From positions 1 through 43,794 of IMG/VR virus record IMGVR_UViG_3300027899_000025: a stretch of 43,794 nt of DNA. One strand, written 5' to 3'. Below, one piece after another: positions 18,872 through 43,141 of this stretch. The notes under the pieces are model-generated. The model worked only from the letters and a program-made list of their open reading frames with translations, made no database searches and was not told the DNA's origin. Origin of the DNA: a virus. Position 1 is the stretch's first letter. Each line of letters begins with the position of its first letter. Both the position numbers and the translations under genes were made by a program.

Positions 18872-19507
18872 TCAACTTGTCCGAGAGGATAGGGTTGGAT
18901 TAATAATCCACAACAATGTTTTCTTATTTTGCTGCTTCAATATTTTATCTAGTGTTGTCATGGCATTATTTGAAACGGCGGGACAGCCCCAACCTTCAGC
19001 TACACCATTAGGATACACTTCATAGTTACGGATATCTTCCCAGCCATGCAAAACAATAGTTCTTTTTTCAGCATTGCTGTTTGTTTTTTCTAAACCTTGC
19101 AGTGTATACTTTATATGTATTCCCCAATTACTATAACCGCGTTCATTTATATAGTACTTGCCTATAGAAGAACAATGACTATCAAATGCGTTACTGATTG
19201 TAGGGTTAGTTTTTGATTCATCAAATCCCCATATATTTTTTCCACAACCGTGGCTAACTGTAAAGCTGTGAGTTACTTCATTTTTATTAAAGTCCCAAAC
19301 ATATAATCTATTAAGACCCGAGTGTACACTTAGGTCTATTAAGATATAAAAGTCAGTGTTGACTTTATGTTTAGTGCAATAATCCTTTGCTTCTTTTGAA
19401 TAAGCTCTAGTGTTGTCATTATGTTTACTAACTTCTGGTTTTACAGGAGCATTGCAATTTACCATAAACATACTTAACACTATGCTCAGATAAATCTTTC
19501 TTAGCAT
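18872..19507 (-). CDS. Murein L,D-transpeptidase-fold lipoprotein (YkuD_2 type), lysis candidate
   Basis: A 211-residue protein. The first 17 residues (MLRKIYLSIVLSMFMVN) are a hydrophobic signal followed by Cys18, so it is probably a lipoprotein, though Asn at -1 of the lipobox is unusual. The catalytic region matches the murein L,D-transpeptidase catalytic domain family (PF13645): SHGCGK near 85-90, SSIGKYY near 113-119, IVLHGW (His154) and GWGCPAV (Cys175, the expected nucleophile). Family members form or cut links at meso-diaminopimelate in peptidoglycan. It is the last gene of the minus-strand operon, directly before the shared terminator, and no classical endolysin is visible. Inference: it acts at the envelope in lysis or late wall remodelling. 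A host-wall modification role is an alternative. Confidence 0.8.
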   Translation of the reverse strand: MLRKIYLSIVLSMFMVNCNAPVKPEVSKHNDNTRAYSKEAKDYCTKHKVNTDFYILIDLSVHSGLNRLYVWDFNKNEVTHSFTVSHGCGKNIWGFDESKTNPTISNAFDSHCSSIGKYYINERGYSNWGIHIKYTLQGLEKTNSNAEKRTIVLHGWEDIRNYEVYPNGVAEGWGCPAVSNNAMTTLDKILKQQNKKTLLWIINPTLSSRTS

Positions 19508-39099: not shown

Positions 39100-39954
39100 T
39101 TAAAATATGTATCTAATTGTATTCCAAGGTATAATCTGATCATGTAGTTCAGTCCACTTCTTTATGTACTGAGCTTTAAGGTCATGCTTATACCTTATGT
39201 TTTCTCCACCATACTGTGAGATTTTTCCTTCCTGTATCTCAGGTTTCCATAATAGATCTTCACCAGAAAGATTGTTGGCCAGGTTATACTGATGCTTACC
39301 TTCATTGTGAGTAAGGAAGATTACCTCAGCTTTAACCTTGTCTTTGTTCTTTACAAAGCTATTAACTTGAATAAACAAATCTCCATACTCTAGTAACCAG
39401 TCTTTAGTAACTATTACAGGAGAGAAGTTTATATGAACATCATAACCAGCATCAATAAACTGATCAATGGCTTTTATTCTTTCTTCTATACTACTAGTAT
39501 TAGGCTCTAACTGATCAGCATATACTTGAGGCATAAGACTAAATCTTATTCTAATCTTACCTTCTGGTTTATACTTAAGCAGTTTTTTATTTACATACTT
39601 AGTAGCAAAGGATCCCATGGCTAGCTCATGACCCTTGAAGAAATCAAAGATCTTCTCCCACTCATGGTATTTGGCATGTAAAGCAAAGTCTTCATTACAG
39701 GAGATGTCATAAGTAATATACTTCTCATGTGTTTGGTTAGGCTTCTCTGTAGTAGCAAACCAAGAATGATGATCAATAGCTGTAAGGATGTCTTCTGTGT
39801 TGGTTGCAATATCTAATCCCTCAGGTTTGTGTCTCTTCATGTAGCAGTAAGTACAGTTGTATAGACAGCCATGACCAAAGCTAGGTGATATAAAATCTGT
39901 TGACCTACCACTAGGTCTGATGAGCATAGACTTTCTAGTTACTTTTTCTACCAT
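39100..39954 (-). CDS. Spore-photoproduct-lyase-family radical SAM protein
   Basis: A 284-residue protein with the radical SAM signature CLYNCTYC (C30, C34, C37), which binds a [4Fe-4S] cluster and S-adenosylmethionine. The order SPSFGHGCLYNCTYCYMKRH, then EKYITYDISCNEDFALH (Cys86), RIRFSLMPQ and VHINFSPVIV matches the SPL family. Cys86 is about 50 residues after the cluster, where SPL keeps its hydrogen-donor Cys (C141 in Bacillus subtilis). Family knowledge: SPL reverses the 5-thyminyl-dihydrothymine UV lesion; many relatives outside spore-formers have unknown substrate. It overlaps the upstream gene by 20 bp. It could repair phage DNA or modify a nucleic acid or protein. Confidence 0.88.
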   Translation of the reverse strand: MVEKVTRKSMLIRPSGRSTDFISPSFGHGCLYNCTYCYMKRHKPEGLDIATNTEDILTAIDHHSWFATTEKPNQTHEKYITYDISCNEDFALHAKYHEWEKIFDFFKGHELAMGSFATKYVNKKLLKYKPEGKIRIRFSLMPQVYADQLEPNTSSIEERIKAIDQFIDAGYDVHINFSPVIVTKDWLLEYGDLFIQVNSFVKNKDKVKAEVIFLTHNEGKHQYNLANNLSGEDLLWKPEIQEGKISQYGGENIRYKHDLKAQYIKKWTELHDQIIPWNTIRYIF

Positions 39955-41016: not shown

Positions 41017-41358
41017 TTAGTCTTGTTTGTTTAGTGAGTTAATGAATGAGTCAAAATCTTTTATATTATCAGGTACACCATGCCCTCTACCGCTATTAAA
41101 AGCATTCTCTAAATTTTCCTCTGTGTATTTCTTATCAGCCATTTCCATAGCTTGTTGATGCCAATGGTCAAACTCACCTTGCCAATATTCTACATCTTTT
41201 TGCATATCTTCTTGGCATTGAGTGTAGCCAGCCACAAAATTAGTCAACACTTCTTCATATTTATGAAATGTAGATTTATCTTTAATTCTATATTTAGTAG
41301 AACCATACTCATGAGCATTAATCCACATATTATTTTTTATTTCTTCTTGTGTTTTCAT
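41017..41358 (-). CDS. Hypothetical protein with Trp/His-rich helix
   Basis: A 113-residue protein: MKTQEEIKNNMWINAHEYGS, FVAGYTQCQEDMQKDVEYWQ, then GEFDHWHQQAMEMADKKYTE. Long helical segments of this style occur in small phage proteins whose function is unknown. It lies 1 bp from the next gene and begins 2 bp after the deacetylase-type gene's stop. Confidence 0.6.
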   Translation of the reverse strand: MKTQEEIKNNMWINAHEYGSTKYRIKDKSTFHKYEEVLTNFVAGYTQCQEDMQKDVEYWQGEFDHWHQQAMEMADKKYTEENLENAFNSGRGHGVPDNIKDFDSFINSLNKQD

Positions 41359-41359
41359 G

Positions 41360-42259
41360 TTACTGGTTGTTAATTGTTTTTTGACAAATTAATAATGATT
41401 TTATGTGCAGGTCAAGTACAAAGTCATAGTTGTCTTTACGGTATCCACCAAATAAACAAAGTACTACAGGAACACGTTTGCATAGTTTAACTGATACATC
41501 ATTAATCCAATTAGAAAATATCTCAGCTGCTTTAAGCCAGTTTTCTGTACTAAGCTGTCCTCCTAGATCATCTTCATCGTGACTATCAGCGCCGTGACAA
41601 AACACTACGTAATGTACTTTGTTACTTAGAATCATCTCCTCTACGTGTTTTAACTTTTCTTTAAAGTCTTCAAGGTATGAGTTATTACGACCTTGAGGGT
41701 TTATGTTACACCCTTTTGGTATAGCTTTCAGAAGAGTTGGATTAAAACTATAAGCATCATCTATACTGTTACCGTAATGACCATCAAGATCTAGATAAGC
41801 TCCAGATAAACCAAATTCATTATAAATCTTTATAGCTGATATAACCTGACCTGAGAATGTACAGAAACCTGACCCACTATCAGGATGTGCATGATGCATA
41901 CCAGATACGGGAGCAAAGCATATTTGCCCAGGATTCTGAATAGCGTGTCTCTTTGCTGCAAGCAGTGATCCTGTAGTGTAATGCAAACTGTTTACCAATT
42001 CTCTGCTCCAGGGTAATGAATTACTTTTATAATTACCTTTCATGTTAAATACATTATTCACGTATTCTTTAGTGTGAGCTATATAAAAGTCAGTTTTCTT
42101 AATAGGTTGGAAATAATCAATCACATCAAAATATCTTCTATAACCTGTGTTCTCTATCTTTTCCATTAAAAGCTTTGGCTTAAGTGGGCTTTTAGAAAAA
42201 GATTCACTCATCTTAGTACACACTTGTTTGGGCGTGTAAAATGTTTTTATTTTTTCCAT
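41360..42259 (-). CDS. Histone-deacetylase-superfamily zinc amidohydrolase
   Basis: A 299-residue protein with every landmark of the HDAC/acetylpolyamine-amidohydrolase fold: GMHHAHPDSGSGFCTFS with H122 and H123, YLDLDGHYGN with D157, D159 and H161, CHGADSHDEDD with D225, and LFGGYRKDN with Y273. In HDAC8 terms these correspond to the His pair, the zinc ligands D178, H180 and D267, and the transition-state Tyr306. The family removes acyl groups from lysine or polyamines using zinc. Active-site residues appear intact, so catalysis is plausible. A prokaryotic relative (AcuC or polyamine amidohydrolase) is a likelier source than a eukaryote. It sits in the small-gene region, suggesting a host-takeover role. 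Confidence 0.93.
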   Translation of the reverse strand: MEKIKTFYTPKQVCTKMSESFSKSPLKPKLLMEKIENTGYRRYFDVIDYFQPIKKTDFYIAHTKEYVNNVFNMKGNYKSNSLPWSRELVNSLHYTTGSLLAAKRHAIQNPGQICFAPVSGMHHAHPDSGSGFCTFSGQVISAIKIYNEFGLSGAYLDLDGHYGNSIDDAYSFNPTLLKAIPKGCNINPQGRNNSYLEDFKEKLKHVEEMILSNKVHYVVFCHGADSHDEDDLGGQLSTENWLKAAEIFSNWINDVSVKLCKRVPVVLCLFGGYRKDNYDFVLDLHIKSLLICQKTINNQ

Positions 42260-42264
42260 ATTGT

Positions 42265-42522
42265 TTATTGATCTTGCATGTCACCAACTGTTAAGTCAGT
42301 GTCATCAATGTTGTCCATTAGTTCATTCTCTTCTCCAAGAGCTTTTGTTGTTGCTAATAAATGTCTTGTTGTATTCATCATTAACATGAATTCAAAATTA
42401 GGTTTACCATCTCCTCTAGTTGCACCCATTTTATCATCAATAAGCATAGCTTCTATAGATTTAATCTTTTTTAAAAAGCCATATCTTAATTCTTTAGCTG
42501 TAAAGTTTTCTTCTTCCTTCAT
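42265..42522 (-). CDS. Hypothetical helical protein
   Basis: An 85-residue protein: basic N-terminal half (ELRYGFLKKIKSIEAMLIDD), then a helix FMLMMNTTRHLLATTKALGE and an acidic end (DNIDDTDLTVGDMQDQ). No family is recognised. Its start overlaps the upstream stop (ATGA), and it precedes the deacetylase gene by 5 bp, so the two may be co-expressed. Confidence 0.6.
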   Translation of the reverse strand: MKEEENFTAKELRYGFLKKIKSIEAMLIDDKMGATRGDGKPNFEFMLMMNTTRHLLATTKALGEENELMDNIDDTDLTVGDMQDQ

Positions 42523-42725
42523 TGTGTTTTTGGATTTAGGCCTAGTTTCCTAGAGTTATTACTAAAATTATTTAACAAAAGAGCTTGAAGATCCTTCATC
42601 TGCTGATGAATATCAAGCTCTTCACTTGTAAGTATTCTTTTGTCTACAGGATAGCATCTGCCGGTAAGTTGGAATTTAAACCAGTTTCTTTTCTGAGCTA
42701 ATTCTTTTTTAGTTAATGTTATCAT
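42519..42725 (-). CDS. Hypothetical basic protein
   Basis: A 68-residue, Lys/Arg-rich protein (MITLTKKELAQKRNWFKFQL..., QALLLNNFSNNSRKLGLNP), all-helical in appearance. ATGA junctions at both ends link it to its neighbours. No function can be assigned. Confidence 0.6.
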   Translation of the reverse strand: MITLTKKELAQKRNWFKFQLTGRCYPVDKRILTSEELDIHQQMKDLQALLLNNFSNNSRKLGLNPKTQ

Positions 42726-42943
42726 GGTTGTTGTTTTATACCAAACTCAATACCAGCTTGTGAGTTATAAATAAATCTGTCCATAGCTCCTATTGATAAT
42801 TGAGGATTGATTTCTGTTAATAATGACTGAAATTCTTGATGAGGAATTATTACTAGTAATCTCATGTTGCTAGGTATCTCACCCATATTATGAGCAATGT
42901 GAAACCCGAAGGCTTCAATGTCATGTCTTGTTTTTATTTCCAT
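42722..42943 (-). CDS. Hypothetical protein
   Basis: A 73-residue protein: MEIKTRHDIEAFGFHIAHNM, MRLLVIIPHQEFQSLLTEIN, then FGIKQQP. Mixed alpha/beta. Its ATG lies only 13 bp after a terminator-like element, so it must be expressed by read-through or a promoter of unknown type. It couples to the next gene through ATGA. Confidence 0.6.
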   Translation of the reverse strand: MEIKTRHDIEAFGFHIAHNMGEIPSNMRLLVIIPHQEFQSLLTEINPQLSIGAMDRFIYNSQAGIEFGIKQQP

Positions 42944-42956
42944 AAGTGTGATAATT

Positions 42957-42979
42957 AAAAAAGCCGGTCTTTCCCGACT
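42957..42979 (-). terminator. Terminator-like hairpin before the gene at 42722-42943
   Basis: In minus-strand RNA: AGUCGG-GAAAGA-CCGGCU (6-bp stem with one G-U) followed by UUUUUU. It ends any transcript from the intergenic stretch 42980-43141 or the genes upstream of it, and sits 13 bp before the next ATG. Confidence 0.75.
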
Positions 42980-43141
42980 GTCAGTCTTTGATATCCATAA
43001 TGCATATGAATTTAAGCTACCAACATTGTCTATATATACGTCTGCTAAATGTAGTCATCGCTGACTCAGTTGGGTACAGATGTGTATATACGATGGATAC
43101 CCATCTATTTACCCTCATACTCCGACAAGAGTGTGCGCTAT
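42980..43141 (-). other. Non-coding stretch with inverted repeats, possible small RNA
   Basis: This 162-bp stretch holds no convincing gene (the best minus-strand frame is only 33 codons). It contains GATGG-ATAC-CCATC (43092-43105) and a longer GGGTA/TACCC pair around it that would compete with that hairpin, and it ends at a terminator. I find no tRNA arms (no GTTCRA T-loop). It could be a small RNA gene or a long regulatory leader. Confidence 0.35.

Follow-up and report, generated by a model that had tools for sequence, protein, structure and literature searches.

In strict deacetylases of the histone deacetylase (HDAC) superfamily the foot pocket is closed by an RPP motif, which the long-acyl enzymes VcHdaH (SGGYHH) and HDAC11 (GGGFHH) lack (PMC11532494). 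An acidic residue at the rim of the substrate tunnel (D101 in HDAC8, E94 in HDAC11) is thought to hold the peptide backbone (PMC13325672, PMC11532494). Class-IV enzymes of clade A are without this residue, have a closing Arg at the foot end and were inactive on acyl peptides, and non-peptidic substrates have been proposed for them (PMC13325672). Among viruses, HDAC and acetylpolyamine amidohydrolase (APAH) proteins exist in giant viruses (PMC9992855). A phage-encoded acetyltransferase, Rac, targets host RNA polymerase (PMC7552054). The papers searched yielded no description of an HDAC-type deacylase from a phage; gp202 of Rhodococcus phage E3 is already annotated 'putative histone deacetylase'.

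The gene analysed here, P0001, lies at positions 41360..42259 of the window (the whole stretch of 43,794 nt, 43.8 kb, that forms IMG/VR record IMGVR_UViG_3300027899_000025). It is on the minus strand and encodes 299 aa from an ATG start to a stop codon; the plus strand is full of stops over the same interval. A sequence-only reading of this DNA had given the coordinates exactly, without the strand, and had placed the product in the HDAC superfamily, a classification that is borne out. P0001 matches Pfam PF00850 (Hist_deacetyl) with an E value of 2.6e-23 (83.3 bits, over the cut-off of 27.9), and a single-sequence phmmer search recovered HDACs from the PDB, the best being 9gz5 (1.6e-12), then 9gkv (8.7e-11). 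The AlphaFold2 model, made with 39 aligned sequences, shows a confident HDAC-type fold (pLDDT 92.7, pTM 0.92). In Foldseek searches of the PDB, liHDAC11 (9gz5) came first (E 8.2e-16, TM 0.75) and VcHdaH (9gky/9gkv) next, and these two are the closest solved structures by sequence and fold, with a TM of about 0.75 and 20 % identity. Significant matches in the viral Foldseek library were giant-virus HDACs and an arginase, and the first phage match was a 113-residue fragment. With the Pfam match, the catalytic set and the fold all present, P0001 is a member of the HDAC/arginase-deacetylase superfamily. NCBIfam gave no match to P0001, even at E 1.

The family alignment comprises 39 clade members, distant phages included, and the catalytic residues listed by the sequence-only reading (H122, H123, D157, D159, H161, D225 and Y273) stand at those positions and are identical in all of them. 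The catalytic His pair H122-H123 (41891..41896, minus strand), in PVSG-M-HHAHPDSGSGFCTFSGQ, aligns with the HH of liHDAC11, VcHdaH and HDAC8. The segment D157-L-D159-G-H161 (41777..41791, minus strand), with predicted zinc ligands and the relay Asp, is followed by Y162-G163-N164, in which G163 and N164 are also found in 39/39. The predicted third zinc ligand, D225 (41585..41587, minus strand), is in HGADSHxxDDLG, and the catalytic Tyr, Y273 (41441..41443, minus strand), is in LFGGYRxDDY and precedes an invariant R274. K27, W84, Q138, S226 and H285 are among the further positions that do not vary within the clade. The position of HDAC8 Asp183 is Asn164 in every member. As liHDAC11 likewise has Asn here (HQGNG) and Asn is common at this position in class II enzymes, Asn164 is no argument against activity. 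The gene is under purifying selection, with dN/dS of 0.09-0.10 against three relatives (a fourth pair was saturated). Given the intact catalytic set and the confident fold, P0001 is probably an active Zn-dependent amidohydrolase, which supports the earlier suggestion of an active zinc deacylase at the level of a prediction.

The substrate channel is where the clade departs from class IV. In a channel-wall segment, residues 175-195 (41675..41737, minus strand), the alignments indicate a rebuilt and shortened sequence, TLLKAIPKGCNINPQGRNNSY replacing the class-IV VFTFSMHQENLYPKKEKSDLDI..., and the AlphaFold2 model has a short helix at residues 175-179 instead of a strand. The segment reads A-I/V-P-x-x-x-N-x-N-P, with N185 in 39/39 and N187 in 38/39. 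Asn187 aligns to the channel aromatic HDAC11 Tyr209, in a region (residues 175-195) whose alignment is uncertain. One half of the class-IV aromatic pair (HDAC11 F152 and Y209) is kept, as F132 is Phe in 36 and Tyr in three of the 39 sequences, and the other half is not found. The L1 motif F-S-K-S-P-L-K-P-K, residues 21-29 (42173..42199, minus strand), is clade-specific, with S22, S24, P25, K27 and P28 invariant; the class-IV L1 motif, HPFD in clade B or HRFD in clade A, was not found in the clade, which has S-x-S-P-x-K-P there. At the acidic rim position, here residue 81, 33 of the 39 sequences have Gly or Ser and no acidic residue is listed.

At the foot of the channel, RPP before the His pair gives way to SG(F/M) (PVSGMHH or SPTSGFHH), so that the foot gatekeeper, residue 121, is a bulky Phe or Met. 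The foot-end position is Ser or Thr in 39/39. All 39 sequences have Phe directly before GGY (LFGGY), where VcHdaH and HDAC11 have a small Gly or Ser. Position 232, that of the HDAC10-type gatekeeper, is Leu in 35/39 and overall Leu, Met, Phe or Tyr; the Glu of HDAC10 was not found there, and bacterial APAHs are also without it. Set against class IV, these residues indicate that the zinc chemistry has probably been kept and the acyl-lysine tunnel altered, which suggests a non-canonical substrate, without naming which.

P0001 belongs to a distinct, deep, phage-centred clade, whose members share at least 42 % identity and are less than 30 % identical to other HDACs over most of their length (up to 44 % over short stretches). 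In a quick tree, 40 clade rows stand on a common stem that is 4.03 changes per column long (support 100). The clade falls on the side of VcHdaH at support 87, a placement made unsure by the long stem. The clade is not close to the branch with the non-class-IV-like HDACs. A description of this clade was not found in the literature searched (mostly openly readable papers), and it is apparently undescribed so far.

Relatives at 44-95 % identity are encoded on 49 IMG/VR contigs picked up by a profile scan. The carriers are crAss-like phages (L011-L019), which have other genes in common with the window phage, and large phages, several of 216-482 kb. The closest relatives in GenBank are in huge phages of 636 kb (48 % identity) and 735 kb (44 %); the latter is the record genome size in PMC7162821, where all genomes of >634 kb were predicted to infect Bacteroidetes. 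Clade members were also found in seven bacterial genomes (43-59 % identity). These carrier counts are lower bounds, as the scans seed on short peptides. PHROGs has no family that matches P0001 (best E 0.14), and seven of 50,697 phage records match it (a different phage HDAC, taken as the query, matches 12). The gene is therefore as unusual in a phage as the sequence-only reading held; it is not unprecedented, given the annotation of E3 gp202 and the HDAC and APAH genes of giant viruses (PMC9992855).

Carriage is also sporadic among relatives. Twenty long relatives of the window phage (84-122 kb) were identified by DNA polymerase, and only one of them, an already known carrier, has the clade gene. 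In a sample of 395 Bacteroidota genomes, the clade gene was found in the genome at the sample's centre and in none of the 394 others; other HDACs are common across the sample. These distributions point to an accessory gene that is probably mobile. The bacterial members are scattered inside the clade in the quick tree (five label changes), which favours repeated exchange over one cellular origin and does not give its direction. The P0001 gene has a GC content of 0.344 (window, 0.342) and a GC3 within the range of the other genes, so its composition gives no hint that it was acquired from elsewhere very recently, and recent transfer was rejected on this ground.

Three bacterial copies have features of their own. 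In Bacteroidetes UBA1312 (L062:3887-5951), the clade gene begins inside the end of a phage-type tyrosine-integrase gene and has a VapE-like gene near it; it is possibly cargo of an integrative or satellite element. In a second bacterium, the clade gene is close to a transposase and an integrase. The copy in a Marinilabiliaceae genome has an internal TGA.

The window phage appears from its genes to be crAss-like, and its host is probably a Bacteroidota bacterium. A minus-strand module contains a family-B-type phage DNA polymerase (phrog_1252; annotated family B in some relatives), DnaB-like helicase, uracil-DNA glycosylase (UDG), AAA ATPase and VWA-metallopeptidase proteins, and a primase zinc-ribbon match that is sub-threshold only. 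Among phages, the UDG is best matched by crAss-like phages of Bacteroides and from gut metagenomes, and a comparable gene set is found in Cellulophaga phage phi14:2 (Crassvirales). Two ORFs of 3,755 aa and 1,938 aa presumably fit the giant virion proteins of Crassvirales. The minus-strand module also includes an SPL-type (spore-photoproduct-lyase-like) radical-SAM protein at 39100-39954 (PF20903, E 1e-22), and the window has, on the same strand, a predicted L,D-transpeptidase with a lipoprotein-like N-terminus at 18872-19507 (YkuD_2, E 8.2e-32).

The HDAC gene is within a compact run of small ORFs without assigned function. Three ORFs upstream (42265-42522, 42519-42725 and 42722-42943, all minus strand) are tightly packed with it and, by their spacing, likely form one transcription unit with it. 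The ORF downstream (41017..41358, minus strand) begins 1 bp past the HDAC stop codon and has a weak, sub-threshold Pfam match only. No neighbour conserved beside the HDAC gene was found across the carriers, and no pathway is indicated. PADLOC gave no match for the HDAC or for seven other window genes, five of them HDAC neighbours, and a link to a defence system was rejected on this basis.

Just upstream of the HDAC unit (42950-43140, minus strand) is a candidate for a conserved structured ncRNA of ~190 nt, with an intrinsic-terminator-like hairpin at its end and compensatory changes in 12 of 46 predicted pairs (four sequences). It matches no Rfam family. Its covariance model matches related crAss-like phages, including one without the HDAC gene (G418, E 3.7e-24), so the candidate is independent of the deacylase. 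In the huge phages, the HDAC gene has a recurrent neighbour of 425-660 aa with a GNAT-like LRGTGL motif (L007:6925-8202 and L053:8925-10202, with homologous neighbours in L021-L056), the only neighbour that two of their lineages share, seen in two orientations. An acetyltransferase partner is not claimed, as Pfam gave nothing, PHROGs matches were insignificant, the model has a pLDDT of 45 and the GNAT matches in Foldseek were non-significant and stood among others.

Several activities could be proposed for such a protein. The fold and catalytic set are those of lysine deacylases, and P0001 might help takeover as a deacetylase or de-fatty-acylase of host or phage proteins, for example RNA polymerase or translation factors. 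liHDAC11, the nearest relative with a solved structure, belongs to a clade that robustly removes long-chain acyl groups from lysine (PMC13325672) and shares the bulky foot gatekeeper with P0001. Acetylated host proteins had been among the targets offered by the sequence-only reading; they fare poorly by published criteria (PMC11532494, PMC5454378, PMC13325672), as the acidic residue that positions a peptide is absent. Together with the Asn in place of the channel aromatic and the shortened wall loop, this leaves a protein lysine deacylase unlikely. The same reading had also offered polyamines, and an APAH that frees spermidine or putrescine for phage DNA packaging would have a precedent in the active HDAC-superfamily APAHs of giant viruses (PMC9992855). 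By the same criteria (PMC11532494, PMC5454378, PMC13325672), P0001 has neither RPPGHH nor EGGY, no Glu gatekeeper and no long L2 loop, its L2 region being no longer than that of VcHdaH or liHDAC11 in the alignment, and a directed search of viral sequences found these enzymes in Imitervirales only and in no phages (PMC9992855). We consider this role very improbable.

Bacteroidetes are rich in aminolipids, which counts for a fatty N-deacylase that would use a class-IV-like foot pocket on host aminolipids or other long-chain N-acyl amines. Such an enzyme would also fit the SG(F/M)HH in place of RPP, as in the long-acyl enzymes (PMC11532494), the Ser/Thr in place of the clade-A Arg at the foot end (PMC13325672) and the predicted Bacteroidetes hosts of the largest phages (PMC7162821). 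The invariant Phe before GGY may narrow the pocket, no lipid gene is nearby, and this reading, an alternative to take seriously, is slightly more doubtful than an action on acyl-lysine. A catalytically dead protein, its fold reused as a binder, could account for the rebuilt channel segment and the nonsense codon in one bacterial copy; seven catalytic residues invariant in 39 members, distant phages among them, and purifying selection make it hard to credit.

The reading we prefer, with slightly better than even confidence, is that P0001 is a catalytically competent Zn amidohydrolase, nearest to class IV/cluster 5 but in a clade of its own, that acts on a non-canonical N-acyl substrate and spreads as an accessory gene. 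The activity, substrate class and role that we infer would be as follows. By homology, D159, H161 and D225 would hold the zinc, H122/H123, paired with D157/N164, would activate water, and Y273 would stabilise the tetrahedral intermediate, so that the N-acyl group would be released as the free acid. As the tunnel rim and one wall have been rebuilt, the substrate would be neither an ordinary acetyl-lysine peptide nor an acetylpolyamine; it may be another N-acylated molecule, most likely small or non-peptidic, inside infected Bacteroidota cells. The clade is too divergent (~20 % identity) for substrates to be transferred safely from known HDACs. The gene would pass between unrelated phages as an accessory gene, and its most plausible role would be to undo host N-acylation or to free an amine useful in infection.

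An extension of this proposal, which we regard as speculative and unlikely, is a phage-dedicated HDAC branch that has lost the acyl-lysine channel wall, acts on a so far undescribed non-peptidic N-acyl substrate and reverses an anti-phage acylation by the host, as a counter-defence gene traded among crAss-like phages, the largest known phages and Bacteroidota integrative elements. Carriage as a mobile accessory gene would fit a role outside defence just as well. The conserved and probably mobile phage clade, its zinc site intact and its channel rebuilt, provides a defined set of proteins for finding N-acylation relevant to phage infection of Bacteroidota, and bears on what the class-IV clade-A deacylases, which are without a confirmed peptide substrate, act on.

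Among the known systems, APAHs (cluster 4), virus-encoded in Imitervirales, and AcuC (cluster 2) have the superfamily in common with P0001. The RPPGHH and EGGY motifs and the dimerising L2 loop of APAHs are absent from it, and membership of either group was rejected on motifs, the absent NCBIfam match and the tree. Phage E3 infects Rhodococcus equi, and its gp202 and six IMG/VR relatives are HDAC-superfamily phage proteins of ~300 aa with GFCTFNG and GGY..DLH. At 25 % identity, they group with the clade in the quick tree (support 97), outside the long stem, and are without the clade signatures SPxKP, FSGQ and HGADSH. Other phage records hold different genes of this kind. A 595 kb phage (LR756511.1, L008:5917-6845) has a different HDAC whose reading frame breaks immediately behind DCDMHW, through either an assembly error or a broken gene. 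Staphylococcus phages UPMK_1 and SA 1306 Kay, Pseudomonas phage Y10 and Microbacterium phage Magritte (gp204) have stretches resembling other HDAC-superfamily genes, some of which may be host DNA in the assembly.

The best match to P0001 in both fold and sequence, liHDAC11 (Leptospira interrogans, class IV clade B; PDB 9gz5/9rjd), shares with it HH, DLDxHxGN (Asn included), GAD, GGY, a bulky residue before HH and Ser at the foot end. The two are 20 % identical. L1 is HPFD in class-IV clade B, which also has an acid at the rim (E84) and Tyr209 in the channel; in the phage clade, L1 reads SPxKP, the rim acid is missing, Asn187 and the rebuilt segment take the place of the channel aromatic and its surroundings, and FSGQ stands for the LND of liHDAC11. 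The second-best fold match, VcHdaH (Vibrio cholerae, cluster 5b, class IV clade A; PDB 9gkv/9gky), for which only weak de-decanoylase activity was found, differs at ~20 % identity in having HHGDG and not HFGNS, Arg at the foot end and an intact channel loop. VcHdaH and P0001 are alike in the absence of the RPP motif and of an acidic rim residue, in GGYR and in a terminal LH, GFPWS of VcHdaH resembles NSLPWS, and VcHdaH is the nearest cellular branch to the clade in the quick tree.
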